From positions 248,001 to 312,000 of the forward strand of contig NZ_QTQI01000003.1 in the NCBI RefSeq assembly GCF_003853705.1: a DNA stretch of 64,000 bases. Direction: 5' to 3'. The notes beneath the pieces were generated by a model. That model was not told the origin of the DNA. It saw only the letters and a program-made list of their open reading frames with translations, and ran no database searches. The position numbers and the translations under genes were made by a program. Position 1 is the stretch's first letter. Each line of letters opens with the position of its first letter. The DNA is from Burkholderia sp. Bp8992 (GTDB lineage Bacteria; Pseudomonadota; Gammaproteobacteria; Burkholderiales; Burkholderiaceae). Shown piece by piece: positions 28,356 to 43,150 of this stretch.

Positions 28356-28390
28356 GCATGGCGCGTACAGGCGCGCCATGCCCTTTGTTT
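28356..28390 (+). terminator. Hairpin with T-rich tail before the biosynthetic operon
   Basis: GCATGGCGCG (28356-28365) pairs perfectly with CGCGCCATGC (28372-28381) across a 6-base loop and is followed by CCTTTGTTT. This is terminator-like, although the T run is broken. It lies only 22 bases before the ribosome site of the first biosynthetic gene, leaving little room for a separate promoter. It may therefore act as an attenuator or partial terminator controlling read-through into the operon. Confidence 0.6.
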
Positions 28391-28411: not shown

Positions 28412-29737
28412 ATGAGCAACGCGAGTGTGACAGCAAAGATCAAGGAAACGCCGGCGCCGAAGGAACCGGCGACGGCAACGCCGGTCCCGTTCGAGAGCCA
28501 GGAGACGGTCGCCAGGCGGACGTCGGTAAAGCTGACCAACGTGTCGGCGAGCGCCCAGTCGAAGCGCACGGCGCTGGACGGGCAACTGGTGTGGTACGAC
28601 ACGGCGCAACTGGCCAGGCCGCATCCGGACGACAGCATGTTCGTGCGGGTCGTCAATTCGCTGTACAGCGGTGTGGTGGTCTACCCGGACAACGCGGCCA
28701 ACCTGCTGCCGGCGATTCCGGACCGGATGCAGGTCGTGCTGCGCCTGGGCAATGCCGCCGATGTCAAGGCGTTCCGCGAAGGGCCGCTGTACGCCGAGTT
28801 CAAGGGTGACGGCAAGCGCCGGCGCACCGTCGCGTGCCGGGATCTCGCTGCGCTGCGGCAGCTCGGCTCGGAGGGCATCACGACCTGCTACACGAGCTAC
28901 GTGGACGATCGCGAGAGCCTGCTCGGCGCCATCAACGACGGGCTCGCGTTCGACTATCTGTGGATCCGCTTCCGCGACCCGACCAACATTCCGCTGGAGC
29001 TGGTGATCGCGTCGCTGCAGTCGACGGGCACGATCCTGATGAAGGAGATCAACGAGCCGACCAACGTCGACGACGCGATCGTGTCGTACGGCGTGATGGA
29101 GTACGGCGCGGAAGGCGTGATCTTCTCGCCGCGCGACCATGGGGTGATGTCGTCGTTCCTCGACCAGATGTCGGACGCGGAACACGAGAACCTGCAGATC
29201 CAGACCGGCACGGTGATCGAGAGCCGCCCGGTGGGCATGGGCTACCGCGCCTGCATCGACACGTCGACGCTGTTCGCGCCGGACGAAGGGATGCTGATCG
29301 GCAGCACGTCGCAGGGCGGCCTGCTGGCCTGCCCGGAAGTGTTCTTCCTGCCGTACATGGAGCTGCGCCCGTTCCGCGTCAACGCCGGCGCCGTGCACTC
29401 CTATGTCTTCAATACCGGCAACCGCACCGACTACATGAGCGAGCTCAAGGCCGGCTCGCCGGTGATGATCGTAAACGCGAAAGGCCGCGTGCGGCGCGCG
29501 GCGGTGGGCCGGATGAAGATCGAGCAGCGTCCGCTGCGACTGATCGAGGTGGAGTTCCCCGGCAAGGAGCGCGTCAACATCCTGATGCAGGACGACTGGC
29601 ACGTGCGCGTGTTCTCCGACGCAGCCAAGCCGCTCAACATCTCCGAGCTGAAGCCGGGCGACAAGGTACTGGGCTACGTGACGGAGCCGGGGCGTCACGT
29701 GGGCATCAAGATCAACGAGACGATCATCGAAAAGTAG
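28412..29737 (+). CDS. 3-dehydroquinate synthase II family enzyme (GriH-like)
   Basis: A 441-residue enzyme of the DHQ synthase II family (archaeal AroB', MJ1249 type), unrelated in sequence to the usual AroB. Conserved stretches include KEINEPTNVDDAIVSYGVME, EYGAEGVIFSPRD and GDKVLGYVTEPGRHVG. In Streptomyces griseus GriH, of this family, converts the C7N product of GriI into 3-amino-4-hydroxybenzoate. The first 58 residues are an Ala/Pro/Thr-rich extension before the domain. The next gene, the matching aldolase, starts 9 bases downstream, and this two-gene pairing is diagnostic of the pathway. It is the first core gene of the operon; GAGG precedes the ATG. A role in primary shikimate synthesis is unlikely in a bacterium that would carry AroB. 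Confidence 0.92.
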   Translation: MSNASVTAKIKETPAPKEPATATPVPFESQETVARRTSVKLTNVSASAQSKRTALDGQLVWYDTAQLARPHPDDSMFVRVVNSLYSGVVVYPDNAANLLPAIPDRMQVVLRLGNAADVKAFREGPLYAEFKGDGKRRRTVACRDLAALRQLGSEGITTCYTSYVDDRESLLGAINDGLAFDYLWIRFRDPTNIPLELVIASLQSTGTILMKEINEPTNVDDAIVSYGVMEYGAEGVIFSPRDHGVMSSFLDQMSDAEHENLQIQTGTVIESRPVGMGYRACIDTSTLFAPDEGMLIGSTSQGGLLACPEVFFLPYMELRPFRVNAGAVHSYVFNTGNRTDYMSELKAGSPVMIVNAKGRVRRAAVGRMKIEQRPLRLIEVEFPGKERVNILMQDDWHVRVFSDAAKPLNISELKPGDKVLGYVTEPGRHVGIKINETIIEK

Positions 29738-29746
29738 GAGACGTCG

Positions 29747-30547
29747 ATGGGCTACGTCGGTAGAAAACTGAGAGAGCGCCGGATCCTGTTCCCGGATTCG
29801 CAGCGCGGGCTGATCGTGCCGGTCGATCACGGGCTGACGCTCGGCCCGATCGCCGGCATCCAGGCAACGGAGGCACTGGAAAGCTGGGTCGGAAGTGCCG
29901 ACCTCAGCGCGGTGCTCGGTCACAAGGGGCTGATCGAGCGCCTGATCGTACGGCAGTGCCTGCACCCTGCGACGGGCGTGATCGTGCACCTGAACGGCAT
30001 GGCGAGCCTGTCGCCCGATGCGGACACCAAGGTCATGGTGGCCGACATCGATACGGCGTTGCGGCTCGGCGCGGATGCGGTGTCGATCCAGGTGAACTTC
30101 ACGACCGGCAATTTCGCGCACAACTTCGCGATGCTCGGCGCGGTGACGGACGCCGCGCACGCCGCCGGGCTGCCGCTGCTGACGATGCTGTACGACAAGG
30201 TGCAGACGCCCAACGCCGCGGAGCGCCTGGCACGCCTGCACCATCTCGTGCGAGTGGTGACCGAGCTGGGTTCGGACGCCGTGAAGCTCGCGTACGCGTC
30301 GGTGGACGAAGTCGAGCAGCTGGCTTCCGCTCATGGACGCGACATCCGGATCTTCTTCGCCGGCGGCGAAAAGGCGGACGAAGAGGTCCTGGTGGCGATG
30401 TCGCAGGCTGCGATCCGGCATGGCGCGACCGGACTCTGCGTGGGCCGCAACGTGTTCCAGCACGCGCGGCCGCGGGCCCTGCTCCGAAGGCTGGCGGACA
30501 GCGTGAAAGGCCGGACCGAGCAGCTGGTCGAACTCGACCTCGTGTGA
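29747..30547 (+). CDS. C7N aldolase, ADH synthase/GriI-like (DeoC/LacD fold)
   Basis: A 266-residue class I aldolase of the 2-amino-3,7-dideoxy-D-threo-hept-6-ulosonate synthase family (MJ0400, GriI). It has the N-terminal LIVPVDHGLTLGP motif, MLYDK, the Schiff-base Lys180 in SDAVKLAYASV, and the phosphate-binding end GATGLCVGRNVFQ. GriI joins aspartate-4-semialdehyde and dihydroxyacetone phosphate to give the C7N precursor that GriH cyclises to 3-amino-4-hydroxybenzoate. The start has AGGAG upstream and lies 9 bases after the GriH-like gene. The length is normal for the family. The pair strongly implies an aminohydroxybenzoate-derived metabolite. Confidence 0.93.
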   Translation: MGYVGRKLRERRILFPDSQRGLIVPVDHGLTLGPIAGIQATEALESWVGSADLSAVLGHKGLIERLIVRQCLHPATGVIVHLNGMASLSPDADTKVMVADIDTALRLGADAVSIQVNFTTGNFAHNFAMLGAVTDAAHAAGLPLLTMLYDKVQTPNAAERLARLHHLVRVVTELGSDAVKLAYASVDEVEQLASAHGRDIRIFFAGGEKADEEVLVAMSQAAIRHGATGLCVGRNVFQHARPRALLRRLADSVKGRTEQLVELDLV

Positions 30548-30593
30548 TGCCGTTCGCCGCGCCATGGGGGCGCGGCCGTGGAGAACCCATTCG

Positions 30594-33023
30594 ATGAATG
30601 CAATGAACCATCAACCGGTGGCGGGACACGTCTTGCCCGGACACATGCAGTTGTCGCAGCTCTGGTCGGACATGTTTCCGGCCGGGCTGCTCGAGGAACT
30701 GAACGCGAACCCGTTTCTCGCGGCCTGTCGCGACGGCACGGTCAGCGATGCGCAGCTGCGCGGCTTTCTTATTCAGCACCAATATTATTCGCAGTACTTC
30801 ACACGTTACCTGTGCTCGATGATGGGCGGCCTGGCCGAGCCGGGAGAATTCAAGGCGCTGTCGCACAACCTGACCGAGGAGCTGCACGGCGACGGAACGG
30901 ATCAGGTCTCGCACGCGGAACTGTATCTGCAGTCGATGGAGGCGATGTCGGCGTTGCCGCGCAGCCTGCCGATGCTGTCGAGCACGCGCGCGCTGATCGA
31001 CGTCATGTTCCATTACTGCCGCGGCGCCGATCCGCTGGACGGCCTGGCTGCGCTGTGCCTCGGCGCGGAGGCGATCGTGCCGATCGTCTACGGTCCGATC
31101 CTGGCCGCCATGCGCCATCGCAATGCGCCGGAGCAGGCCACGCGGTTCTTCAAGATCCATGTCGAGGAAGACGAGCAGCATGCGATCGTGATGCGCGAGA
31201 TCATCGACCGGATGCTGGCCGAGAAGCCGTACCGGCGGGCGCGCGTGATCGCGGTCGGCGAGGAGATGGTGCGGCGCCGGATGGCGATGCTGAGCGACCT
31301 GCTCGCGTATCCGGGCAACGACGCGCCGGAGGCGGAGGCGCGACTGCCGGAAGCCGGGCTGGCTGCACTGCGTGCGGACGCCTCGCTCGGCAGCGGCAAT
31401 TTCATCGATCTGTGCCTCGCGCTGAACCCGGCGAAGGACGTCGAATTCCTGCAGCTGGACAAGCCGGTGACCGGCGTCGATGGCGCGCCGGTGCGGGCCT
31501 TCAGTCTCGCGACCCTGCAGCAGTATCGCGCGGCGCTGGCGGACTGGTACCTGGGCCAGGGCGTGGGCCGCGGCGATGTGGTGGCCGTGTGCGTGGAAGA
31601 CGGCATCGCGCCGTTTCTCCATTACCTGGCGCTGACGAGCCTCGGCGCCGCGATCGCGCTGATCAACCCCGCGATGCCGGCCGAAGTCGGCGCGGCGTAC
31701 ATGAGCGAGAACGGATTCGACCGGCTGGTGGCGGATACGCATACGCTGGCGGCGAGCGCGTTCGTGCGGCACTGGGGCGCGTCGCATCCCGACCGGCTGG
31801 TGGACGTGTCGCGCGCGGTGCTGCGGCCTGACGCGCGCATGCCGGCCGGATGGCCGGTGGCGCCGGAGGATTCGACGCTGGTGATGCTGAGCCATACGTC
31901 GGGCACGACCGGGATCCCGAAAGCGGTGCGCTTCGAGCACCGGCAGTTCTTCATGGGCAAGCGCGCCCGCATCGGGCGCTTTGCCGAGGGCCCGGACGAA
32001 CGCCTGCTGACGGCGCTGCCCCAGTCGCATTCGGCGGCGATCAGCCATCTCGAAACCGCGGTGCTGCACGCCATTCCGACCTATGTGATGGGCACGCAGG
32101 AAGGCGACGCGGTGCGCGCGGCGATCCGCGCGTTTCGCCCGACCACGGTCGTCGCGTTCCCGAAGAGCTACATGCAATTGGTCGAGGGCGGTGTCGGCGA
32201 GCGCGAATTCGATTCGGTGCGGCGCTGGTTCAGCATGGGCGACGCGGCGCACCAGAGCCATACGCGCCGGCTGCTGGCCGGTGCGCCGGAATCGCGCTTC
32301 ATCGACGCGTTCGGCAGTTCCGAACTGGGCATGGCGCTGTTCCGCTGCGAATCGACCGCGGCCGAGCTGGCACCGCAGCGCGCGATCGGCCGGCCGGTGG
32401 ACATCGCTGTCGCGAAGATCCTCGATCCGGTGACGGGCCACGAAGTCGCGCCGGGGCAACGCGGCCTGCTCGCGGTGCGCGCGCCGACGATCACGTCCGG
32501 GTACTGGCAGCAGCCGGCACGCACGGCCGGCGCATGGCAAGGCGGCTATTTCCTGACGGGCGACGTCGCGTACTGCGAGGACGGCATCTTCTATCAGATC
32601 GACCGTGAAGTCGACGTGGTCGAAACGCCCGCGGGCCGGCTCTACACGCTGCAGCTTGAGGAAGTGGCCCAGCAGGTGCCGGGCGTGTGCGACGTGGCCG
32701 TGGTCGGCGTGGACGGCGACACGGCCGACGATCCGGCGCTGCTGGCGCTGGTGCTGCCCGACCGGCACGTCGCCGATCCGGCGGCCGTCGCGGAAGGCGT
32801 GCTCGAGGCGCTGCTCGCCGAATGCGGGGCCGTGCTGCCGGAGCGCGGCGTGGCCGTGGCGATCGTGCGCAGCCTGGCGTTCCTGCCGGTGGGCGCGACC
32901 GGCAAGGTGCTGAAGCGACTGTTGCGCGATTCGGCGGGGGCGTTGCTGCGTCGTGCAGCCGACGATGCTTCCGGCACGCGCGACGTCCTGTATGTGGCGC
33001 GCGGATCTGCCGCGCGCGTTTGA
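30594..33023 (+). CDS. Fusion of haem-oxygenase-like di-iron oxidase and adenylating enzyme
   Basis: An 809-residue two-domain protein. Residues about 20-240 are a haem-oxygenase-like di-iron oxidase (HDO, PqqC/TenA fold). Candidate iron ligands are Glu95/Glu96 in LTEELHGDG, His107 in SHAEL, Glu159 in GAEAIV, and His189, Asp193 and His196 in HVEEDEQH; the H-x3-D-x2-H spacing is that of known HDOs such as CADD and SznF. Residues about 270-790 are an acyl-CoA synthetase/adenylation domain with SHTSGTTGIPKA, FGSSELG, a divergent GDVAYCEDGIFYQIDRE and the C-terminal Lys in ATGKVLKRLL. No carrier protein follows, in the gene or in the operon. The adenylation half probably activates an aminohydroxybenzoate and the HDO half oxidises it, possibly at nitrogen; both are inferences. 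The ATG at 30594 follows GGAG. Confidence 0.88.
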   Translation: MNAMNHQPVAGHVLPGHMQLSQLWSDMFPAGLLEELNANPFLAACRDGTVSDAQLRGFLIQHQYYSQYFTRYLCSMMGGLAEPGEFKALSHNLTEELHGDGTDQVSHAELYLQSMEAMSALPRSLPMLSSTRALIDVMFHYCRGADPLDGLAALCLGAEAIVPIVYGPILAAMRHRNAPEQATRFFKIHVEEDEQHAIVMREIIDRMLAEKPYRRARVIAVGEEMVRRRMAMLSDLLAYPGNDAPEAEARLPEAGLAALRADASLGSGNFIDLCLALNPAKDVEFLQLDKPVTGVDGAPVRAFSLATLQQYRAALADWYLGQGVGRGDVVAVCVEDGIAPFLHYLALTSLGAAIALINPAMPAEVGAAYMSENGFDRLVADTHTLAASAFVRHWGASHPDRLVDVSRAVLRPDARMPAGWPVAPEDSTLVMLSHTSGTTGIPKAVRFEHRQFFMGKRARIGRFAEGPDERLLTALPQSHSAAISHLETAVLHAIPTYVMGTQEGDAVRAAIRAFRPTTVVAFPKSYMQLVEGGVGEREFDSVRRWFSMGDAAHQSHTRRLLAGAPESRFIDAFGSSELGMALFRCESTAAELAPQRAIGRPVDIAVAKILDPVTGHEVAPGQRGLLAVRAPTITSGYWQQPARTAGAWQGGYFLTGDVAYCEDGIFYQIDREVDVVETPAGRLYTLQLEEVAQQVPGVCDVAVVGVDGDTADDPALLALVLPDRHVADPAAVAEGVLEALLAECGAVLPERGVAVAIVRSLAFLPVGATGKVLKRLLRDSAGALLRRAADDASGTRDVLYVARGSAARV

Positions 33024-33042
33024 ACCGGAGACAACGCGAGTC

Positions 33043-33762
33043 ATGAACGAACAAGACTATCAATCCGACGCGTTCGCATCGGTGCGGCGCAGGCTGGCCG
33101 CCGCCGAGGCGGACGGCATCGTCCGCTACGAATGCGAAGGCCGCAGCTTCGACGTGCATGCGGGGGTGTTTCCGCCGACGCATTTCCAGTCGACCGGCAT
33201 CTTCACCCGGCACCTGCCGTACCGCCGCGGCGGCAGTTTCCTCGAGATCGGGTGCGGCGCGGGCGTGACGGCAGTGACGGCCGCCCTCGCCGGCTGCGCG
33301 CGGGTCGTCGCGGCAGACATCAGCGAGGCGGCCGTGCTCAACACGCGGGCCAACGTGCTGCTGCACGGCGTGGCGGAGCAAGTGTCGACGCGGCACGGCG
33401 ACCTGTTCGACGTCCTGCAGCCCGGCGAGCGATTCGACCAGATCTTCTGGAATTCGAACTTCGTCTTCGTTCCGGAGGACTACGTGTTCGAGCAGCCGAT
33501 CCTGCAGGCGTTCTGCGACGCGGGCTACCTCGCGCACCGCCGGTTCCTGCGCGAAGCGACGCGGCACCTGATGCCCGGCGGCGAACTGCTGATCGGCTTC
33601 AGCAGTCTCGGCGACGAACGGGCGCTGACGGAAATGCTCGCCGAACACGACTACTCGTCGACGATCGTGGCGTCCGCCTTTGGCGAGGGCGCCGGCGCGC
33701 ACCGCTACGACATCCTGCGGCTGTGGCCAGGCCGGCAGGTGTCCGCGGCCGGCGCGGCGTGA
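33043..33762 (+). CDS. SAM-dependent methyltransferase, PrmC/TrmN-like fold
   Basis: A 239-residue class I methyltransferase. The SAM-binding motif FLEIGCGAGVTAVTAAL lies at about residues 66-82, with the acidic ribose-binding end in VVAADIS and a motif-IV equivalent, FWNSNFVFVPEDY (about 136-148). In PrmC-like N-methyltransferases this position is NPPY/F, so NSNF is a departure that suggests a changed substrate site. It lies 19 bases after the fusion gene and 13 bases before the hydroxylase, inside the operon. It probably methylates a phenol, amine or hydroxylamine of the aminohydroxybenzoate-derived intermediate (inference). Confidence 0.85.
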   Translation: MNEQDYQSDAFASVRRRLAAAEADGIVRYECEGRSFDVHAGVFPPTHFQSTGIFTRHLPYRRGGSFLEIGCGAGVTAVTAALAGCARVVAADISEAAVLNTRANVLLHGVAEQVSTRHGDLFDVLQPGERFDQIFWNSNFVFVPEDYVFEQPILQAFCDAGYLAHRRFLREATRHLMPGGELLIGFSSLGDERALTEMLAEHDYSSTIVASAFGEGAGAHRYDILRLWPGRQVSAAGAA

Positions 33763-33775
33763 CGCCGGAGCCGGC

Positions 33776-35575
33776 ATGTCGAACGTAGCCTCCGATGCTG
33801 GCCGCCGGTCCGGCACGACACACGAGCGGCCGGTGGCCATCGTGGGCGGTGGCCCGGTGGGGCTGCTGCTCGCGCTGTTCCTCGATCGTCACGGCGTTGC
33901 GTCGATCGTGTTCAACCGCGAGCCGGACAGCCGCTGGCATCCGAAAGGCAGCACGCACAACGCCCGAACGATGGAGCACTACCGCCGCCTGGGCATCTCG
34001 GATGCGGTGCGCGCGCAGGGTTTGCCGTCCAATCATCCGCGCGACATCGCGTATTTCACGCGGCTCGCCGACTGGGAGCTGGCGCGGCTCGCCATGGGTT
34101 CCGAGTACCAGCGGATGCGGGCGGCACGCGCCGCCGACGATATCGATCAGGTGCCCGAACCGCTGCTGCGCACGAACCAGATGTATGTGGAGCGGTTCCT
34201 GCTCGCCCACGCGCGCACCCGGCCCAACATCGATGTGCGGTTCGGCTGGTGCGTGACCGGGTTCGAACAGGATGAAACAGGCGTCACGCTCGACGCCCAG
34301 TCCGTGGACAAGCCCGCGACGGCCGAGCGGTGGCGGGCCGCGTACCTGGTCGGCTGCGACGGCGGGCAGAGCTTCGTGCGGCGTACGCTCGGCATCCGCT
34401 ATCTCGGCCCGGGCGGCGCGAGCGACGGCTTCCTCAGCGGCCGGATGATCTCGAGCCACGTGCGGATTCCCGCGCTGCACGGCGAGTTGCTGAAGGGGCG
34501 CGAGTCGTGGATGTACAACGTGATGGCGCCCGGCTCGCGGATGCTGCTGATCAGCCTCGACGGCGCGGACGAGTTCCTGCTGATGTCGAAAGCGGACGAC
34601 GGGGAGGCGCTGCCGGACGACGCGACGGTGATCGGCCGGATCCGCGAAGGCGTGGGTCGGCCGGTCGACGTGGACGTGCTCGCCCATGCGTCGTGGCAAG
34701 GCGGCGTCGCGCTGGTGGCCGAGCGCTATTCGGCCGGCCGCGTGTTCCTGTGCGGCGACGCCATTCACCTGTTCTCGCCGACCGGCGGCTTCGGCATGAA
34801 CACCGGCATCGACGATGCGGCGAACCTCGCGTGGAAGCTGGCCGGCGCGGTGCAGGGCTGGGCCGGCACTTCATTGCTCGCGAGCTATGAAGCGGAGCGC
34901 CGGCCGATCGCGCTGCGCAACACGGCGGCCGCGCGCCGCCTGACGCAGCGCGTGGGCGAGGTGCAGGTGCCGATGGACGTCGAGATGCCGGGCGCGCACG
35001 GCGACGCGGCGCGCGCGCGGCTCGGCGACGCGCTGCAGGCATTTCGCGCGCAGTTCGACGCGATCGGCGTGGAGCTGGGCGCACGCTACGACGGCTCGTC
35101 GATCGTCTGGCCGGACGGCACGGCGCCGGAGGACGACCCGCTGATCTACCGGCCGAGCAGCGTGCCGGGCGGCCGCTTGCCGCATCTGTGGCTGACCGGT
35201 GCCGACGGCGTGCGCCGGTCGGTCTTCGACCGGCTGGGCGTCGGGTTCACGTTGTTGCAGGTGCGGAGCGCGGCCGAGCCGCCCTTCCCCGGCGACGATG
35301 CCGAGCGGCTCGCCGAGGCAGCACGCGTGCGGGCCATTCCGCTGTCGATCGTCGAGATCGAGTCGGACGCGGCACCGGCATTGTACGAGCGGCGCCTGGT
35401 GCTGGTCCGGCCCGACCAGCATGTCGCGTGGCGCGGCGATGTCGTACCGCGTGACGCGGGCGCGCTGCTCGACCGCGTGACCGGGCGCACGACGGATTCA
35501 CCGGCCGGCAACCTGCAGCGGGCACCGGGCGCGGATCACGCGACCCGCCATCCGGTAGCCGATGCAGCGCGCTGA
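33776..35575 (+). CDS. FAD-dependent aromatic hydroxylase (class A flavin monooxygenase)
   Basis: A 599-residue monooxygenase of the phenol/3-(3-hydroxyphenyl)propionate hydroxylase type. It has the N-terminal FAD motif VAIVGGGPVGLLLALF, the NADPH-related VGCDGGQSFVRRTLGI, and the FAD-ribityl motif GDAIHLFSPTGGFGMNTGID near residue 327. A C-terminal thioredoxin-like domain (about 440-570) is typical of the longer members. Such enzymes add one oxygen to an electron-rich ring using NAD(P)H. In cremeomycin biosynthesis a flavin enzyme hydroxylates 3-amino-4-hydroxybenzoate before methylation, so an equivalent step is plausible here. GGAG precedes the ATG at 33776. Confidence 0.93.
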   Translation: MSNVASDAGRRSGTTHERPVAIVGGGPVGLLLALFLDRHGVASIVFNREPDSRWHPKGSTHNARTMEHYRRLGISDAVRAQGLPSNHPRDIAYFTRLADWELARLAMGSEYQRMRAARAADDIDQVPEPLLRTNQMYVERFLLAHARTRPNIDVRFGWCVTGFEQDETGVTLDAQSVDKPATAERWRAAYLVGCDGGQSFVRRTLGIRYLGPGGASDGFLSGRMISSHVRIPALHGELLKGRESWMYNVMAPGSRMLLISLDGADEFLLMSKADDGEALPDDATVIGRIREGVGRPVDVDVLAHASWQGGVALVAERYSAGRVFLCGDAIHLFSPTGGFGMNTGIDDAANLAWKLAGAVQGWAGTSLLASYEAERRPIALRNTAAARRLTQRVGEVQVPMDVEMPGAHGDAARARLGDALQAFRAQFDAIGVELGARYDGSSIVWPDGTAPEDDPLIYRPSSVPGGRLPHLWLTGADGVRRSVFDRLGVGFTLLQVRSAAEPPFPGDDAERLAEAARVRAIPLSIVEIESDAAPALYERRLVLVRPDQHVAWRGDVVPRDAGALLDRVTGRTTDSPAGNLQRAPGADHATRHPVADAAR

Positions 35576-35606
35576 TTCAACACGGCAGTTCAACTGAGGA
35601 GCGACC

Positions 35607-36365
35607 ATGAGTGACATGCTGGAGGAAACGCAAACGTCGACCGAGCCGGCCGATCACGCCGGCTTGCCGCAGCACCGGGCGGAGCACGACGTCGAATCGG
35701 ACTGGGCGGACGACGCACAGGACAACGCGGCCGCGTTCGCGCTGGTCGACGACGACCCCGAGCCGCTGGTCGTCAACGGCGAGCCGGAAGGCGCGTCGAT
35801 CAAGTTCGTCCGCACCGGCGCAACCACGGGCCAGCGGTATCTGATGGCGAAGGTCGAGATTCCGCCGGGATCGGGGCCGCCGCTGCACCTGCATACGCTG
35901 ACCGACGAGTGGTTCTACGCGCCGGAAGGCGGCATCGTGATGCTGATGGGCACGAAGAAATACCGGGACCTGGATCAACCGCCCGACGTCTCCGGGCGCG
36001 ACACGATCCGGATGATTCCGATGAAGAAGGGCAGCCTCGTGTTCGGTCCGCGCAATCACATCCACGGCTTCCTGAACGTGACGGACAAGACCGTCGTCGT
36101 GCAGCTGGTGTGGACGCCCGACGTACCGGGCGAATCGCTGCTCGATTACTTCACGTCGATCGCGAAGCCGATCCTGCCCGGCGTGAAGGGTGCACTGAAC
36201 AATCCGATCGTGCAGCTGAAGGCCGTGAGCGAAGCGCGCGAGTACGGAATGATGTTCAGCACCGATTTCTGGAGCTACGCCGAGAAAGTCGAGGAAGGTG
36301 CCGCTCCATTCGGCAAGAACCTGCCGGGCCTGATCAAGCTGTTCAAATCGGCCGAAGGTTCGTAA
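35607..36365 (+). CDS. Cupin-domain protein, candidate metal oxygenase or isomerase
   Basis: A 252-residue protein with one central cupin barrel. The full set of metal ligands is present: His94, His96 and Glu101 in LHLHTLTDEW (HxHx4E) and a later His in FGPRNHIHGFLN with the HxxxN pattern of motif 2. The acidic N-terminal 45 residues look disordered, and about 85 C-terminal residues after the barrel form helices. With all four ligands it is likely catalytic (dioxygenase, isomerase or cyclase) and not merely regulatory. GAGGAG precedes the ATG and it lies 31 bases after the hydroxylase gene. Its substrate is presumably a hydroxylated ring intermediate (inference). Confidence 0.85.
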   Translation: MSDMLEETQTSTEPADHAGLPQHRAEHDVESDWADDAQDNAAAFALVDDDPEPLVVNGEPEGASIKFVRTGATTGQRYLMAKVEIPPGSGPPLHLHTLTDEWFYAPEGGIVMLMGTKKYRDLDQPPDVSGRDTIRMIPMKKGSLVFGPRNHIHGFLNVTDKTVVVQLVWTPDVPGESLLDYFTSIAKPILPGVKGALNNPIVQLKAVSEAREYGMMFSTDFWSYAEKVEEGAAPFGKNLPGLIKLFKSAEGS

Positions 36366-36433
36366 GTGGAAAGTGCCGCGCCGGGCTTCCCGGCACGGCT
36401 TGTCAATTCGTCATGCTTATCAAGGTAAAGAAC

Positions 36434-37198
36434 ATGAATCTTCTCGCTGACAAGACCGCCATCGTGACCGGCGCCAGCTCGGGTATCGGCCGCGAGGCCG
36501 CGAAGCTGTTTGCGAAGGAAGGCGCGAGCGTCGTCCTGGTGGCGCGCCGTGCGGCACAGCTCAATGCACTGGTCGACGAAATCGCGAGCTTCGGCGGCAA
36601 GGCGGTCGCGCTGGCCGGCGACGTGAAGGACGAGCGCTGCGCGAAGGAAGCGGTCGAGCTGGCCGTCGGCCGGTTCGGCGGGCTCGACGTGGCGTTCAAC
36701 AACGCGGCGACGATGGGCGCGCTCGGCAGCGTCACCGACATCACGCCGGAAGGCTGGCGCGACACGCTCGAAACCAACCTGACGAGCGCATTCCTCGGCG
36801 CGAAATATCAGCTTCCCGCCATGCTCGCGCGCAAGCGCGGCTCGCTGATCTTCACGTCGTCGTTCGTCGGTCACACGGTCGGCTTTCCGGGGATGGCCGC
36901 GTATGCCGCCAGCAAGGCCGGGCTCGTCGGCCTGGCCAAGACGCTCGCCGCCGAATACGGCCCGTCGGGCGTGCGCGTCAACGTGCTGATGCCGGGCGGG
37001 ACCGACACCGAGATGGGCCGCGAAGCGGCCAGCACGCCGGAGCAGAAGGCGTTCGTCGAGAGCATTCACGCGCTGAAGCGGATGGCCCATCCGGAAGAGA
37101 TCGCGAAGTCGGCGCTGTATCTCGCGTCCGACCTGTCCAGCTTTGTCACGGGCACGACGTTGCTCGTCGAAGGCGGCGTGTCGATCACGCGCACCTGA
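36434..37198 (+). CDS. Short-chain dehydrogenase/reductase
   Basis: A 254-residue classical SDR. The cofactor motif is TGASSGIG (about residues 12-19), NNAAT follows at about 90, and the active site comprises Ser in FTSSFVG and YAASK (Tyr/Lys about 156-160). The end LVEGGVSITRT is typical. ATG 36434 is chosen over 36413 because GGTAAAG lies just before it and the beta-1 strand starts at once. Basic residues (ARRAAQ) after strand beta-2 suggest NADP(H) use. It is one of two SDRs in the operon and would oxidise or reduce a hydroxyl/keto group of the pathway intermediate. Confidence 0.92.
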   Translation: MNLLADKTAIVTGASSGIGREAAKLFAKEGASVVLVARRAAQLNALVDEIASFGGKAVALAGDVKDERCAKEAVELAVGRFGGLDVAFNNAATMGALGSVTDITPEGWRDTLETNLTSAFLGAKYQLPAMLARKRGSLIFTSSFVGHTVGFPGMAAYAASKAGLVGLAKTLAAEYGPSGVRVNVLMPGGTDTEMGREAASTPEQKAFVESIHALKRMAHPEEIAKSALYLASDLSSFVTGTTLLVEGGVSITRT

Positions 37199-37270
37199 GC
37201 GTTCGCTCACCGGGCGGCGCGCCCGCGCCGCCCGCTCCTTCCACTCCTTTCATCCATTGCCGGGACCATC

Positions 37271-38977
37271 ATGAGTCACGAGGCTGAACAGTATCCGCAA
37301 CCGAACGATCTGGACCACGGCCGGCCGCGAAGCCGGCGCGCCTTTCTCGGCAAGCTGGCGGCGCTGGGCGCGGGCGCGGCCGGCGTCGGCCAATTCAGCC
37401 GCTTCATCGACACGGCCGAAGCCGGCCAGGCCGGGGCGCTGCGCGACAGCTACGACTATGTGATCGTCGGCGCCGGGTCGGCAGGAAGCCTGCTGGCCGA
37501 CCGGCTGTCCGCGTCGGGGGCGTCGGTCCTCCTGATCGAGGCGGGCAGCAACCAGCTCGGCCAGTCGAAGGTCGCGCTCGTCGCCGACTGGCTGCGCAAT
37601 CTGGGCAGCGATACCGACTGGGCGCGCACGAGCGTGCCGCAGACGCAACTGGACGGCCGCTCGCAGGCGTCGCCGGCCGGCAGGACCTGGGGCGGCTCGG
37701 GCAGCATCAACGCGATGATCTGGCTGCGCGGCGACCCGCGCGACTATCGCGCGTGGCAGCAGCTCGTCGGGCCCGAATGGAACCCGGCCGAGCTGAACCG
37801 TGCGTACCTGCAGGTGACGCAGGCATCGCATACCTGCGGTGCGGCCGGCGGCCGCATCACGGTCGGCCGGTATGCCGACCAGCATCCGCTCACCGCCGCG
37901 TATCTCGCGGCCGGCGTCTCGACGGGCCTCGGGCAAATCGAGCTGAACGCCGGGCGGCGGCTCGACGGCACCGGCGTGACCGACGTGAACGCGACCGCCG
38001 ACGGGCGGCGCGTCGGGCCCGCGCAGGCCTTCCTGGCGCCTGCGCTGAGCCGGCCGAACCTGAAAATCCTGTCGAACGTCGTGGTCTCGAAGCTGGTCCT
38101 GCAGGGGACGGTCTGCCGCGGCGTCGAGGTGCGGCTCGGCTCGTCCGCGCTGACGATCCACGCGACCCGCGAGACCATCGTGTCGGCCGGGACCGCCGCG
38201 TCGCCGCAACTGCTGATGCTGTCCGGCCTCGGGCCGCTCGACCAGCTCGCGCCGCTCAATATCCAGGTGCGGCAGGACATGCCGGCCGTCGGCCGCAACT
38301 TCCACGACCACCTGCTGCTGAGCGTCACGTACAAGGCGCGCACGGCGATTGCACCGCAGGTGTCGAACGGCGTCTCGACGATGGCGTACTACGGCGGCAC
38401 GGCGGCCAGCGCGCCGACCATCCAGGTGGCCGGCATGCAGTACCCGTTCGGCGGCCCGCTGGCTGCGGGAGAAGGCTACACGCTGATCCCGTTCCTCGCG
38501 AAACCGCGCAGCCGGGGCACCGCCCGGCTCGTCAGCGCCGATCCGCGCCAGCCGCTCTCGCTCGATCCGAATTACCTGGCCGACGCGGTCGACCGCGACA
38601 CGATGGTCGCGGCGCTCGATCGTGCGCTGGAGCTCGGCGCGGCGCGCGCGCTCGCGCCGTACAACGGCGGACTGCAGTCGGGCGCGCCGCTCGCGACGCG
38701 CGCGGACAAGCTCGCGTTCATCCGCCAGAACGCCGCGCCCGGCCTGCATTTCGTCGGCAGTTGCGCCGCCGGCCGCGACCCGGCGACGAGCGTGGTCGAT
38801 GCGCGTTTCCGCGTGTGGGGCATCCAGAACCTGCGCGTCGTGGACGCGTCGGTGATCCCCGAAGTGCCCACGGTCAACATTCAGCCATCCGTATTGACCG
38901 TCGCGCAACTCGCCGCGAACCAGCTTCTCGCCGAAGCACGGGCCAGCGGCATGGCGGTATCTGCCGCAGCCTGCTGA
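37271..38977 (+). CDS. Tat-exported GMC-family FAD oxidoreductase
   Basis: A 568-residue glucose-methanol-choline oxidoreductase. The N-terminus has a twin-arginine signal (RSRRAFLGK, Arg22/Arg23, followed by LAALGAGAAGVG), so the folded flavoenzyme should be exported to the periplasm. The FAD motif DYVIVGAGSAGS begins near residue 60. GMC signatures are GRTWGGSGSINAMIWLRGDPRDY and, at the active site, LHFVGSCAAGRDPATSVVD plus TVNIQPS, which supplies the second polar residue. Export implies that a late oxidation of the product happens outside the cytoplasm, in line with the membrane acyltransferase at the operon end. GMC enzymes usually oxidise alcohols. Confidence 0.92.
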   Translation: MSHEAEQYPQPNDLDHGRPRSRRAFLGKLAALGAGAAGVGQFSRFIDTAEAGQAGALRDSYDYVIVGAGSAGSLLADRLSASGASVLLIEAGSNQLGQSKVALVADWLRNLGSDTDWARTSVPQTQLDGRSQASPAGRTWGGSGSINAMIWLRGDPRDYRAWQQLVGPEWNPAELNRAYLQVTQASHTCGAAGGRITVGRYADQHPLTAAYLAAGVSTGLGQIELNAGRRLDGTGVTDVNATADGRRVGPAQAFLAPALSRPNLKILSNVVVSKLVLQGTVCRGVEVRLGSSALTIHATRETIVSAGTAASPQLLMLSGLGPLDQLAPLNIQVRQDMPAVGRNFHDHLLLSVTYKARTAIAPQVSNGVSTMAYYGGTAASAPTIQVAGMQYPFGGPLAAGEGYTLIPFLAKPRSRGTARLVSADPRQPLSLDPNYLADAVDRDTMVAALDRALELGAARALAPYNGGLQSGAPLATRADKLAFIRQNAAPGLHFVGSCAAGRDPATSVVDARFRVWGIQNLRVVDASVIPEVPTVNIQPSVLTVAQLAANQLLAEARASGMAVSAAAC

Positions 38978-39059
38978 GCCTGCGCCGGACGTGGTGTACC
39001 GCGTGGCTGTTGCGCGGTACGCCTCCCTCTTTTCCCGTTCATTGATGAAGGAATCGCCG

Positions 39060-39809
39060 ATGAAATCCCATCTGGGCAACAAGACCGCGCTGGTCACCGG
39101 CGCATCGCGCGGCATCGGGCGCGCGACGGCGCTCGCGCTCGCGCGCCAGGGTGCGTACGTGCTCGTGCATTACTCGACCGCGGCGGCGGAGGCGGAAGCC
39201 GTGGTGGCCGAAATCCGCGCCGCCGGCGGGACCGCCGATTCGCTCGCAGCCGATCTCGGGACGGTACACGGCCCGCACGCGCTGGCCGCCGCGACGCGCG
39301 AGGCCCTCGACGGCCGACTCGATATCCTGGTCGCGAACGCGGGCATCGCGATGAGCGCACCGATCGACGCGATGCCGGTCGACGATTTCGACCGGCTGTT
39401 CGCCATCAACGTGCGCGCGCCGTACTTCCTCACCCAGCAGCTGCTGCCGGTGATGGGCGACGGCGCGAGCATCGTCCTGCTGTCATCGCTCGGCGCGCGT
39501 TCGCCGGTGGGCGAGATCTCCGCCTACGCGGCGACCAAGGGCGCGATCGACACGCTCGTCAAGCACTTCGCCCAGGCGCTCGGCAGCCGCGGCATCCGTG
39601 TGAACGGCGTGGCGCCCGGCGTCGTCGACACCGACATGTCGGCGTTCGTTCGCAGCGATGCGGGCCGCGAACAGGTCCTCGCGCTCCAGGCGCTGCAGCG
39701 GGTCGCGCGGCCCGAGGACATCGCCGACGTGATCGCATTCCTGGCCTCGGACGGCGCGCGCTGGATCACCGGCGACATCGTGCAGGTGGACGGTGGCACC
39801 AAGCTGTGA
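39060..39809 (+). CDS. Short-chain dehydrogenase/reductase (FabG-like)
   Basis: A 249-residue classical SDR with TGASRGIG (about residues 12-19), NAGIAMS, the active-site Ser in LLSSLGA and YAATK (Tyr152/Lys156 region), and the end DIVQVDGGTKL. The ATG at 39060 follows AAGGAA; an in-frame ATG at 39045 is less likely. It is only distantly like the other SDR in the operon (36434-37198), so the two probably act on different positions. It lies 82 bases after the GMC gene. Confidence 0.92.
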   Translation: MKSHLGNKTALVTGASRGIGRATALALARQGAYVLVHYSTAAAEAEAVVAEIRAAGGTADSLAADLGTVHGPHALAAATREALDGRLDILVANAGIAMSAPIDAMPVDDFDRLFAINVRAPYFLTQQLLPVMGDGASIVLLSSLGARSPVGEISAYAATKGAIDTLVKHFAQALGSRGIRVNGVAPGVVDTDMSAFVRSDAGREQVLALQALQRVARPEDIADVIAFLASDGARWITGDIVQVDGGTKL

Positions 39810-39875
39810 ACGCGCGGCCCGGCGTGCCGGGCCGTATTCCGTGTCCCGACGCCGCCCTTCCGGACGGAGGAAACC

Positions 39876-41111
39876 ATGAAGGCATTGCCGGACAATCCGG
39901 CGCTCGCGCACATCGTGCAGCGGGCGCCGCGCAACCTGGAGCTGGATCGCCTGAGGGCGATCGCCGTGCTGCTGACCTGCTACGTGCATTGGCGCCAGGT
40001 GTTCTATCCGTGGACCTTCACGATGCACTTCGCCGGGCCCGCGACGCCGCTGGACCTGCTGGGCAACGCGTGGGCCGGCGTCGATCTGTTCTTCGTGATC
40101 TCCGGCTACATCATTTCGCGCACGATCGTGAGCGAATTCGATGCGCTGCGCGGTGACCCGGGCGCGCTCGCGGCGCACGTGAAGGCGTTCTACGTCCGCC
40201 GTGCGTTCCGGATCCTGCCGGTCGCATGGTGCGTGATCCTGATCGTCATCGTCTGCGGCGCGTTCCTGAACGCCGGCGGCTATTTCGCCGACACCGTCTA
40301 CAACCTGCAGGCGGCGCTCTCCATCTTCACGTACACGTTCAACTTCTGGCTGCCCGATCACAAGATCGCGCCGGGCGTGCCGCTCGCGCAGTACTGGAGC
40401 CTGTCGGTCGAGGAACAGTTCTATCTCGTGTTTCCGGTGTTCCTGATGCTGACGCGCACGACCCGGCAGCGCGTACTGTGGCTCACGCTCACGCTCGTGG
40501 TCATTTCGGTCGCGATTCGTCCGTACCTGCTGGCCGATCCGCTCAAGGTGTTCTTCTATACGCAGACCCGCTGCGACGGCATGCTCTATGGCTGCCTGCT
40601 GTATCTCGCGACCACCCGGCCGTGGTTCGCCGCGATCCGCATGAACGCCCGGGGAAGCGGTTACCTCGGCGGCGCAGTGGTGCTCCTGCTCGCGCTGGTG
40701 CTGGGCTCGATCACCGCGATCGGATTCGACAACGTCGTCGCGGTGCCGGTAGTCTGCATGCTGTCGGCCGCGCTCGTGTTCCTGGCCGCGTGCGAAGGCG
40801 GCGTCGTGTCGTTCCCGCAGCCGCTGCAATGGGCCTTCGACTGCATCGGCCGGCGCTCCTACTCGCTGTATCTCGTCCATCTGCCGATGTTCTTCCTGAC
40901 GAACGAGCTGATGTTCCGGTACACGCGCGCCCACGACATCGCGATCACGGCACGACTGTGGCCGCAGTACACGCTGCTGATGGCGCTGCTCGTCGCCGGT
41001 GCGACGGAGCTGCTGTATCGCTGCGTCGAGCGGCCGATGATCGCGACCGGCCGGCGGGTCGCGGAGAGCATGGCCAGCGCGGCGCCGGCGGCATTGCCGA
41101 AGGCGGGTTGA
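39876..41111 (+). CDS. Membrane O-acyltransferase, acyltransferase-3 family
   Basis: A 411-residue multi-pass protein of the acyltransferase-3/OafA-like family. The N-terminal LELDRLRAIAVLLTCYVHW carries the family Arg, but the usual catalytic His site is read here as the VHW His (about residue 42). GVDLFFVISGYIISR and YWSLSVEEQFYLVFPV are strong family motifs. About ten hydrophobic helices are visible. These enzymes move acyl groups from cytoplasmic donors to hydroxyls at or across the membrane. It is the last gene of the operon and probably acylates the finished product or an intermediate. CGGAGG precedes the ATG. Confidence 0.92.
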   Translation: MKALPDNPALAHIVQRAPRNLELDRLRAIAVLLTCYVHWRQVFYPWTFTMHFAGPATPLDLLGNAWAGVDLFFVISGYIISRTIVSEFDALRGDPGALAAHVKAFYVRRAFRILPVAWCVILIVIVCGAFLNAGGYFADTVYNLQAALSIFTYTFNFWLPDHKIAPGVPLAQYWSLSVEEQFYLVFPVFLMLTRTTRQRVLWLTLTLVVISVAIRPYLLADPLKVFFYTQTRCDGMLYGCLLYLATTRPWFAAIRMNARGSGYLGGAVVLLLALVLGSITAIGFDNVVAVPVVCMLSAALVFLAACEGGVVSFPQPLQWAFDCIGRRSYSLYLVHLPMFFLTNELMFRYTRAHDIAITARLWPQYTLLMALLVAGATELLYRCVERPMIATGRRVAESMASAAPAALPKAG

Positions 41112-41680: not shown

Positions 41681-43150
41681 TTGAGCCCGTCGCAAGCGCA
41701 CCCTGCGAAAGCACGATCTTCGCGCCAGTCCGTCAAGCTGGATGACATCACGATCGTCGACCCGGCCGTCCTCAAGCGCGCGGTCGGTGCGATGGCGTTC
41801 GGCAATGCGATGGAATGGTTCGACTTCGGCGTCTACAGCTACATCGCCGTCACGCTCGGCAAGGTGTTCTTCCCGTCCAGCAGCCCGTCCGCGCAGTTGC
41901 TCGCCACCTTCGGCACGTTCGCGGCCGCGTTCCTCGTGCGCCCGCTCGGCGGCATGGTGTTCGGCCCGCTCGGCGACCGCATCGGCCGCCAGCGCGTGCT
42001 CGCCGCGACGATGATCATGATGGCCGTCGGCACGTTCGCGATTGGCCTGATCCCCAGCTATGCGTCGATCGGCATCATGGCGCCCGTACTGCTGCTCGTC
42101 GCCCGCCTCGTGCAGGGCTTCTCGACCGGCGGCGAATACGGCGGCGCGGCCACCTTCATCGCCGAATTCTCGACCGACAAGCGCCGCGGCTTCATGGGCA
42201 GCTTCCTCGAGTTCGGCACGCTGATCGGCTATACGCTCGGCGCGGCCACCGTCGCACTGCTCACCGCAACGCTGTCGCAGGAAGCCCTGCTGTCGTGGGG
42301 CTGGCGCGTACCGTTCTTCATCGCCGGCCCGCTCGGCCTCGTCGGCCTCTACGTGCGCCTGAAACTCGAGGAAACGCCGGCGTTCAAGAAGGAGGCCGAA
42401 GCGCGCGAAGCGGACGAACGCGCGCGGCCGAAACAACGCTTCGCGGCGCTGCTCGTCGAACAGTGGAAGCCGCTGCTGCAGTGTGTCGGCCTCGTGCTGA
42501 TCTTCAACGTGACCGACTACATGGCGCTGTCGTACCTGCCGAACTACCTGTCCGCGACGCTGCACGTCCGCGAATCGCACGGGTTGTTCATGGTGTTGCT
42601 CGTGATGGTGCTGATGATGCCGATGACGCTGTACGCCGGGCGTCTGTCGGACAAGGTCGGCCGCAAGCCGGTGATGATGGCCGGCTGCGTGGGCCTGCTC
42701 GTGCTGTCGGTGCCGGCGCTGATGCTGATCCGCACCGGCGGCATGCTGCCGGTGTTCGGCGGGATGCTGATCTACGGTACCCTGCTGTCGACGTTCACCG
42801 GCGTGATGCCGTCGGCGCTGCCCGCGCTGTTCCCGACGCGGATCCGCTACGGCGCGCTCGCGATCGGCTTCAACGTGTCGGTATCGCTGTTCGGCGGCAC
42901 GACGCCGCTCGTCACCGCGTGGCTGGTCGATCGCACCGGCGACCTGATGATGCCCGCGTACTACCTGATGGGCGCGTCGTTCATCGGCATCGTGTCGGTG
43001 CTCGCGCTGCGCGAGACGGCGCGCCAGCCGCTGCCCGGTTCGGGGCCGTGCGTCGCAAGCCGCGCGGAAGCGCTGAGCCTCGTTCGCGGCGGTGCGGACG
43101 ATGCCCGTGTGCCGGGCAGGAAATTCACGCCGGTCGGCGAGCGCGCGTGA
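41681..43150 (+). CDS. MFS transporter, metabolite:H+ symporter (ProP-like) family
   Basis: A 489-residue twelve-helix permease of the MHS group, with NAMEWFDFGVYSY near helix 1, GDRIGRQRVL in the loop between helices 2 and 3, GFSTGGEYGGAATFIAE and RLSDKVGRKPV. Relatives carry proline/betaine (ProP), dicarboxylates or alpha-ketoglutarate. The start is an unusual TTG, supported by CCAGGAGA 7 bases upstream and by the N-terminal sequence. The gene is separated from the biosynthetic operon by 570 bases and is probably independent of it. The last 35 residues are a polar tail. Confidence 0.9.
   Translation: MSPSQAHPAKARSSRQSVKLDDITIVDPAVLKRAVGAMAFGNAMEWFDFGVYSYIAVTLGKVFFPSSSPSAQLLATFGTFAAAFLVRPLGGMVFGPLGDRIGRQRVLAATMIMMAVGTFAIGLIPSYASIGIMAPVLLLVARLVQGFSTGGEYGGAATFIAEFSTDKRRGFMGSFLEFGTLIGYTLGAATVALLTATLSQEALLSWGWRVPFFIAGPLGLVGLYVRLKLEETPAFKKEAEAREADERARPKQRFAALLVEQWKPLLQCVGLVLIFNVTDYMALSYLPNYLSATLHVRESHGLFMVLLVMVLMMPMTLYAGRLSDKVGRKPVMMAGCVGLLVLSVPALMLIRTGGMLPVFGGMLIYGTLLSTFTGVMPSALPALFPTRIRYGALAIGFNVSVSLFGGTTPLVTAWLVDRTGDLMMPAYYLMGASFIGIVSVLALRETARQPLPGSGPCVASRAEALSLVRGGADDARVPGRKFTPVGERA

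Follow-up and report, generated by a model that had tools for sequence, protein, structure and literature searches.

What might be made by a ten-gene operon built around a fusion of an oxygenase with an adenylating enzyme? The question arises from a 64,000-nucleotide stretch of the genome of Burkholderia sp. Bp8992 (contig NZ_QTQI01000003.1, positions 248,001 to 312,000; hereafter the window), in which positions 28412-41111 hold genes for a class II dehydroquinate synthase (DHQS-II) and an aldolase, followed by a gene whose product joins a haem-oxygenase-like diiron oxygenase (HDO) domain to a domain of the ANL superfamily (acyl-CoA synthetases, nonribosomal peptide synthetases, luciferases), and by tailoring genes. 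On balance, the predicted proteins make it somewhat probable that the operon encodes a cremeomycin-like pathway to a nitrogen-nitrogen (N-N) bond of the diazo type, in which the fused HDO would take the place of the nitrite genes of the aspartate-nitrosuccinate (ANS) pathway. The gene set would suit the making of a small diazo-type compound that reacts with DNA, by a route like that to the Streptomyces antibiotic cremeomycin.

The adenylating half of the fusion protein

Comparison of the fusion protein with solved structures gave 246 bits for 9xb8, 224 for 8ztz and 215 for Tri17 of the triacsin pathway (9bq0/8tf7), the only one of the three identified by name, against 100 bits for the next best match. 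A FastTree phylogeny of 29 sequences, including eight ligase outgroups, clustered the ANL half with Tri17, 8ztz, 9xb8 and Streptomyces enzymes encoded near CreE-like and CreD genes, apart from the eight ligases (supports 0.976 and 0.999). The motif GDxxHxxH, which was found in this analysis and has no published definition, was present in 21 of 21 clade members and in none of the eight outgroups. One protein counted in the clade, from a Leisingera plasmid, sits between the diazotases and the ligases in the tree; its stretch (L096:1156-9849) also carries pabB, a 4-hydroxybenzoate 3-monooxygenase gene and a class IV aminotransferase gene, a set that suggests an aminohydroxybenzoate route from chorismate.

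The best NCBIfam model for the domain is the AvaA6 diazotase, and Tri17 is described as a CreM homologue that is a promiscuous N-nitrosylase and forms diazo groups (PMC11705231). By sequence, the ANL half groups with this nitrite-activating diazotase clade (Tri17, AvaA6) and not with carboxylate ligases, and N-N bond chemistry, rather than carboxylate activation, is therefore its likely point. The initial annotation had reported an HDO-adenylation fusion; both domains are indeed present by Pfam, whereas the membership of the adenylation half in the diazotase clade had been overlooked.

The operon, its relatives and cremeomycin

The ten genes, with the two domains of the fusion given separately, are as follows.

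28412..29737, +, DHQS-II, GriH/CreH-type 3-amino-4-hydroxybenzoate (3,4-AHBA) synthase, 441 aa; PF01959, 305 bits
29747..30547, +, aldolase of the GriI/ADH (2-amino-3,7-dideoxy-D-threo-hept-6-ulosonate) synthase type, 266 aa; PF01791 (DeoC/LacD), 98 bits
30564..31343, +, HDO domain, residues 1-260 of the fusion; PF14518 (Haem_oxygenas_2), 79 bits, cut-off 28.9
31344..33023, +, ANL diazotase-clade domain, residues 261-819 of the fusion; AMP-binding, 139 bits, with clade and GDxxHxxH motif
33043..33762, +, class I S-adenosylmethionine methyltransferase, HemK/PrmC-like; PF05175, 50 bits; NCBIfam PRK14968, 72 bits, cut-off 162
33776..35575, +, flavin aromatic hydroxylase; FAD_binding_3; PRK06126, 630 bits, cut-off 445
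35607..36365, +, cupin protein (tailoring); PF07883/PF00190
36434..37198, +, short-chain dehydrogenase/reductase 1 (SDR1); PRK07478, 411 bits, cut-off 267
37271..38977, +, glucose-methanol-choline (GMC) oxidoreductase with twin-arginine leader RSRRAFLGK, read by eye from the sequence; PF00732/PF05199
39060..39809, +, SDR2; PF13561, 193 bits
39876..41111, +, membrane acyltransferase (Acyl_transf_3); PF01757, 88 bits

Reading of the open reading frames (ORFs), together with Pfam searches of the window, bore out ten open, co-directional genes on the + strand with gaps of 9 to 82 bases (in order 9, 16, 19, 13, 31, 68, 72, 82 and 66), and Pfam agreed with every gene function that had been named. 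The start of SDR1 is the ATG at 36434 (36413 being possible), 36431 holding no start codon, and the DHQS-II frame is open from 28358, the chosen ATG at 28412 being preceded by a GAGGA stretch. A major facilitator superfamily (MFS) gene at 41681-43150 begins 569 bases beyond the last gene and is probably outside the operon. Across the operon, predicted promoters and terminators were no more numerous than in shuffled sequences; GC-rich stem-loops of 14 and 11 pairs were seen at 38993-39023, in the GMC/SDR2 gap, and at 28356-28381, before the first gene, with a site count not above that of shuffles.

The fusion protein was scanned against 84,980 species genomes, a search that catches close relatives of this single protein only, and 14 loci were recovered: four in Burkholderia, one in Trinickia, two in Pseudomonas, five in Photorhabdus and one each in Roseateles and Erwinia. 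The order DHQS-II, aldolase, (HDO-)ANL, methyltransferase, hydroxylase was complete in 12 of them, and the other two (L014, L015), where contig ends cut the cluster, agree as far as they reach. These five genes also keep their order, at 54-80% identity, outside Burkholderia, namely in Trinickia, Pseudomonas, Photorhabdus, Roseateles and Erwinia; in the last two genera the third gene has no HDO half. Such conservation of order across genera puts the arrangement far beyond chance. Two further Pseudomonas genomes with the cluster came from a survey of DHQS-II. The closest relative found, a Burkholderia contig from a metagenome-assembled genome (L010), matches the ten proteins of the window at 93-98% identity and has flanking gene families in common with it. 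Two other Burkholderia loci (L003, L004) hold the same ten genes between different flanks, and the cluster therefore seems to move as a unit. A second locus in P. luminescens looks decayed: what it retains is the small cupin, a remnant of the methyltransferase and an intact HDO. In L030, the second HDO of Photorhabdus has an intact ORF.

DHQS-II falls under the cut-off of all seven matching NCBIfam DHQS/BagC models and shares 45% identity with copies from Sinorhizobium and Streptomyces clusters. The aldolase stays under the cut-off of both ADH-synthase models (187 and 175 bits), and its alignment with MJ0400 keeps the Asp of DHG, the Tyr and the Schiff-base Lys. These family matches support the proposed GriH/GriI-type 3,4-AHBA entry pair. 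Two plasmid-borne stretches pair the same genes with a diazotase-clade ANL gene: on Sinorhizobium medicae plasmids (L001:9006-15792) it adjoins a gene of the nonribosomal peptide synthetase (NRPS) type, and in Klebsiella michiganensis (L002:10647-16580) the ANL protein is 40% identical to that of the window and is accompanied by an NAD-dependent epimerase-like gene and an MFS gene, with no HDO or CreE/CreD match in the stretch.

It is hardly credible that the two genes supply dehydroquinate to primary metabolism. DHQS-II serves the archaeal shikimate route and was present in three archaeal control genomes, but surveys of sampled genomes of the class, of Burkholderia and of three holder families found it rare (6 of 369 in the class; 14 of 65 in Burkholderia; 1/349, 3/343 and 4/348 in the families of Roseateles, Erwinia and Pseudomonas), and it accompanies tailoring genes. 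Four of the 14 Burkholderia matches are window-like, one of them (G430) without a fusion gene. The specialised metabolite that had been proposed is supported.

From this pair, and going by enzyme families, the pathway would run as follows. The aldolase and DHQS-II would convert aspartate semialdehyde and dihydroxyacetone phosphate to 3,4-AHBA; the flavin hydroxylase would hydroxylate the ring and the methyltransferase would methylate the product, in an order and at positions that we can only infer; and the ANL domain, as its clade implies, would convert nitrite to nitrosyl-AMP and diazotise the ring amine to an ortho-diazoquinone-type product. The HDO domain would be the most likely source of the nitrogen oxide, instead of CreE and CreD, while the cupin, the SDRs, the Tat-exported GMC oxidoreductase and the membrane acyltransferase may serve later tailoring.

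The hydroxylase of cremeomycin biosynthesis is CreL. The cre genes of Streptomyces cremeus further provide a CreH/CreI 3,4-AHBA entry, the methyltransferase CreN and the ANL enzyme CreM (PMC11429834, PMC11705231). The window shares with them, as far as descriptions of the cre genes allow, the 3,4-AHBA pair, a methyltransferase, a CreM-type ANL enzyme and a flavin hydroxylase; it differs in its lack of CreE/CreD, the fusion of HDO to the diazotase-clade domain, the extra cupin, SDRs, GMC oxidoreductase and acyltransferase, and its Gram-negative hosts. Because CreE and CreD are absent, the operon is cremeomycin-like in its logic, working like those pathways without being a member of them. The claim that no characterised pathway has this combination was not supported, the core set being close to that of cremeomycin save for the nitrite genes.

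A nearer comparison came from two Streptomyces plasmids (NZ_CP107856 and NZ_CP107901; L017 and L018), where DHQS-II, aldolase, hydroxylase, diazotase-clade enzyme, methyltransferase, a CreE-like protein and a CreD-like lyase lie in one cluster. The L017 CreD passes the nitrosuccinate-lyase model (789 bits; cut-off 650). For the CreE-like protein no model was matched at E 1e-40, so that its label rests on size, annotation and place. The window shares with both clusters the aldolase, DHQS-II, the diazotase-clade enzyme, a methyltransferase, a cupin, an SDR and its closest hydroxylase, which over its length is 52.5% (L018) and 49.7% (L017) identical to the FMO_b adjoining the diazotase-clade gene. 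Unlike the window, L017 and L018 carry CreE-like and CreD genes, many more redox genes and no annotated HDO, and their methyltransferases and cupin do not match those of the window.

Neither CreE nor CreD found a match in the window or in the scanned HDO cluster loci. CreE-like matches occurred in only one of 11 cluster genomes, B. multivorans WS-FJ9, as pieces of 33-43%, and no nitrosuccinate lyase passed its cut-off in the 14 cluster genomes, one of which lacks a fusion gene. Matches below that cut-off (about 354-376 bits) in nine of the 14, some also present in 11 of 14 control genomes, are read as related lyases.

Genes for repair of alkylated DNA lie beside several of the clusters. An Ada/OGT gene (O6-alkylguanine repair) was found within 10 kb in six of the 11 genomes counted (Trinickia, three Pseudomonas, Roseateles and Erwinia), adjoined in the Pseudomonas and Erwinia loci by a PF09859 AlkB-like gene; the three Burkholderia and two Photorhabdus genomes were negative, including one (G002) whose contig ends about 1.6 kb past the cluster. 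The count left out two genomes with clusters split over contigs, of which G010 has Ada and AlkB-like genes adjoining its acyltransferase gene and G009 has them clustered on a separate contig. For four of six lineages, gene copies per genome put the chance of such proximity at about 5e-6, an estimate made post hoc with the lineages taken as independent. Ada is also present in both L017 and L018, whereas the window has no Ada or AlkB match. The neighbouring repair genes may shield the DNA of the producer in several lineages. B. multivorans WS-FJ9 also has a contig (L102:8972-13798), separate from that of the HDO-diazotase gene, on which 5 kb hold two AlkB-like genes and four genes of the Ada/OGT type, one of them partial.

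The HDO half and the source of the nitrogen oxide

The HDO half passes its Pfam cut-off, as listed above, and its residues E106, H117, E169, H199, D203 and H206, aligned with CADD, are invariant in 12 of 12 sequences and presumably act as metal ligands; the domain resembles SznF, CADD and BesC in these six positions. Matches to solved HDOs are weak, the best being a 4-aminobenzoate synthase at E 8.5e-05. With these ligands, the domain may be a diiron oxygenase that makes the nitrogen oxide for the ANL domain in place of CreE/CreD, a proposal we hold tentatively. More tentative still is its specific form, a single polypeptide whose HDO would use O2 to oxidise an amine, yielding nitrite (or a nitrosating equivalent) that passes to the fused ANL domain, which would diazotise the aminohydroxybenzoate.

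Four of the six genera found carry HDO and ANL in one fused gene, except that in P. khanii they are separate, overlapping genes. Roseateles has no fused HDO and carries inside its cluster a stand-alone HDO only 36-38% identical, beside an ANL domain at 70%; the HDO function therefore looks needed yet replaceable. The Erwinia genome gave no HDO match and keeps the cupin and SDR1 at 72-75% identity, as would be expected if HDO were a supply step, and it is these two cases that lead us to prefer supply over oxidation of the aryl amine. We also searched 11 cluster genomes (the Erwinia genome and ten bearing HDO) for nitrate reductases at E 1e-50, finding NarG in five, HDO-less Erwinia included, and NapA in none; six of the ten HDO-bearing genomes had no NarG match at this threshold (assimilatory nitrate reductase was not searched).

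Other readings of the fusion were weighed against this one. The initial annotation had taken the ANL domain for an ordinary 3,4-AHBA carboxylate ligase and the HDO domain for a ring or carboxylate oxygenase, with a heavily oxidised, methylated and acylated aromatic as the product. This would suit the ANL fold, and the closoxazole ligases do take 3,4-AHBA and ATP (PMC12118335), but it is unlikely given that clade, motif and bit-score gap all favour nitrite-activating enzymes (in a tree without ClxA) and that the condensing amidohydrolase, thioesterase and carrier protein are absent from the ten genes. Nor do we think it likely that the aryl amine is hydroxylated by the HDO to an N-hydroxylamine, which the ANL domain would then nitrosate to an aryl diazeniumdiolate, a cupferron-like metal chelator. 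Both reactions would then act on one substrate, which would explain the fusion (seen in four of the six genera, with P. khanii as an exception), and both have precedent, the SznF HDO domain being an N-hydroxylase and Tri17 a promiscuous N-nitrosylase (PMC11705231); against this, nitrite would still have to come from elsewhere, Erwinia retains cupin and SDR1 with no HDO at all, and the repair genes would better match an alkylating or diazo product.

A further reading accepts the diazotase and brings nitrite from nitrate reduction or the surroundings, leaving the HDO as an unrelated tailoring oxidation. Nitrite genes are reported missing from 72 of 134 ava-type clusters (PMC10777205), Erwinia has NarG without HDO, and NarG occurs in four of the ten HDO-bearing genomes; but the other six have neither NarG nor NapA, the fusion of an unrelated oxidation to a diazotase would be odd, and Roseateles carries a distant HDO instead. 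We consider this doubtful, and slightly less likely than the two readings above.

Several observations count against the cremeomycin-like pathway with HDO as its nitrogen-oxide source. We know of no HDO that releases nitrite, and NarG is present in those same four HDO-bearing genomes. Neither HDO nor CreE/CreD was matched in the fetched stretches of the diazotase-clade clusters of Klebsiella (L002), Sinorhizobium (L001), G139 (L066) and Erwinia (L013), so that a dedicated nitrite source may be unnecessary. Burkholderia G430 retains four core genes (those for DHQS-II, aldolase, methyltransferase and hydroxylase), yet a search of its genome at E 1e-30 gave no HDO-ANL gene, and the fusion gene of B. 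multivorans WS-FJ9, the sole genome with CreE-like matches, contains an internal stop. The ANL domain misses the AvaA6 equivalog cut-off (260 of 975 bits) and is not filed as AvaA6; the Streptomyces enzyme adjoining CreE-like and CreD genes misses it as well (357 bits), which indicates that the model is narrow. The AlphaFold model of the fusion is poor (mean pLDDT, the predicted local distance difference test, 55), its HDO part being modelled as all-helical; the Roseateles hydroxylase matches in two adjoining frames and may therefore be damaged or mis-sequenced; the window methyltransferase has no match to MT1 or MT2 of L017 and L018; and Ada and AlkB matches are missing from the window, from three Burkholderia loci and from five Photorhabdus loci.

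Tailoring, candidate products and wider meaning

Beyond the core, the clusters diverge. Burkholderia and Pseudomonas share the tail of cupin, SDR1, GMC, SDR2 and acyltransferase, a second hydroxylase, a small cupin and an SDR are present in the five Photorhabdus and, with the SDR incompletely covered, in B. multivorans WS-FJ9, and Trinickia has a flavin reductase; cupin relatives occur in the Burkholderia, Pseudomonas, Roseateles and Erwinia clusters. The acylated product once proposed rests on the membrane acyltransferase gene of the window, a gene that only some of the related clusters were seen to carry. Motif IV of the methyltransferase appears to read NSNF, where HemK/PrmC enzymes have NPPY. 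The predicted lack of a polyketide synthase, NRPS or carrier protein was confirmed by Pfam among the ten genes.

Among known systems, Tri17 and AvaA6/CmaA6 are separate enzymes with partner nitrite genes (PMC11705231, PMC10777205), resembling the window in ANL clade and motif (Tri17) and in best NCBIfam model (AvaA6) and differing from its diazotase-clade domain in not being fused to HDO. SznF also joins an HDO domain to one that forms N-N bonds (PMC11705231), but that partner, unlike the one in the window, is a cupin acting on a guanidine. Closoxazole (clx, pfx) likewise combines 3,4-AHBA with ANL enzymes outside the actinobacteria, using a condensing amidohydrolase and two ligases, whereas the ten genes hold no amidohydrolase; since closoxazole, derived from 3,4-AHBA, is reported from a myxobacterium, Pyxidicoccus fallax, and from Clostridium cavendishii (PMC12118335), the view in the initial annotation that known relatives are solely actinobacterial is not supported. 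For the window itself, no tyrosinase model matched among the ten genes. Grixazone and nitrosobenzamide-type pathways, by comparison, use a tyrosinase-like copper oxidase.

Two known compounds were rejected as products. The Photorhabdus compound 3,6-dihydroxy-1,2-benzisoxazole has named genes that differ, and P. noenieputensis DSM 25462, given as a non-producer (PMC11481567), nevertheless has the cluster (L008). Cepabactin was considered because Burkholderia cepacia and Pseudomonas alcaligenes were among the matches. The latter species is a cepabactin producer. Another Burkholderia cluster (L065:723-14602; also L072 and L105-L112), present in 10 of 65 Burkholderia genomes, fits cepabactin far better. 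This candidate comprises a FUSC exporter, a flavin reductase, an FAD monooxygenase and a luciferase-like monooxygenase divergent to an aldolase, a DHQS-II paralogue, DHQS-II and an O-methyltransferase, adjoined by a TonB-dependent receptor; all ten query genes were matched in 10 of 10 loci, some long genes over part of their length, and a simple Fur-box scan gave nothing beyond shuffles. If nitrogen of the aldol-derived C7N product cyclised to the C6 ketone, with subsequent decarboxylation, the 5-oxy-6-methylpyridine skeleton of cepabactin could result. Its genes were described as unidentified in 2017 (PMC5681537), and none of the matches listed in our literature search names them since 2021.

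Diazo metabolites are uncommon compounds, reactive and difficult to isolate. The CreM-type systems of the cited papers come from actinomycetes; no title or abstract among the matches listed describes a fusion of HDO with a diazotase, or a cluster like that of cremeomycin in Gram-negative bacteria, which is not proof of absence from print. A compact version, with the oxygenase fused to or beside a diazotase-clade enzyme and no recognised ANS pair, recurs in Burkholderia, Pseudomonas, Photorhabdus, Trinickia and Roseateles, and cluster finders that look for assembly lines would probably overlook the operon. If the proposed role of the fusion is true, it would be a self-contained enzyme for N-N bond formation, and would add a further biological source of nitrite for diazo products to the ANS pathway and nitrate reduction.

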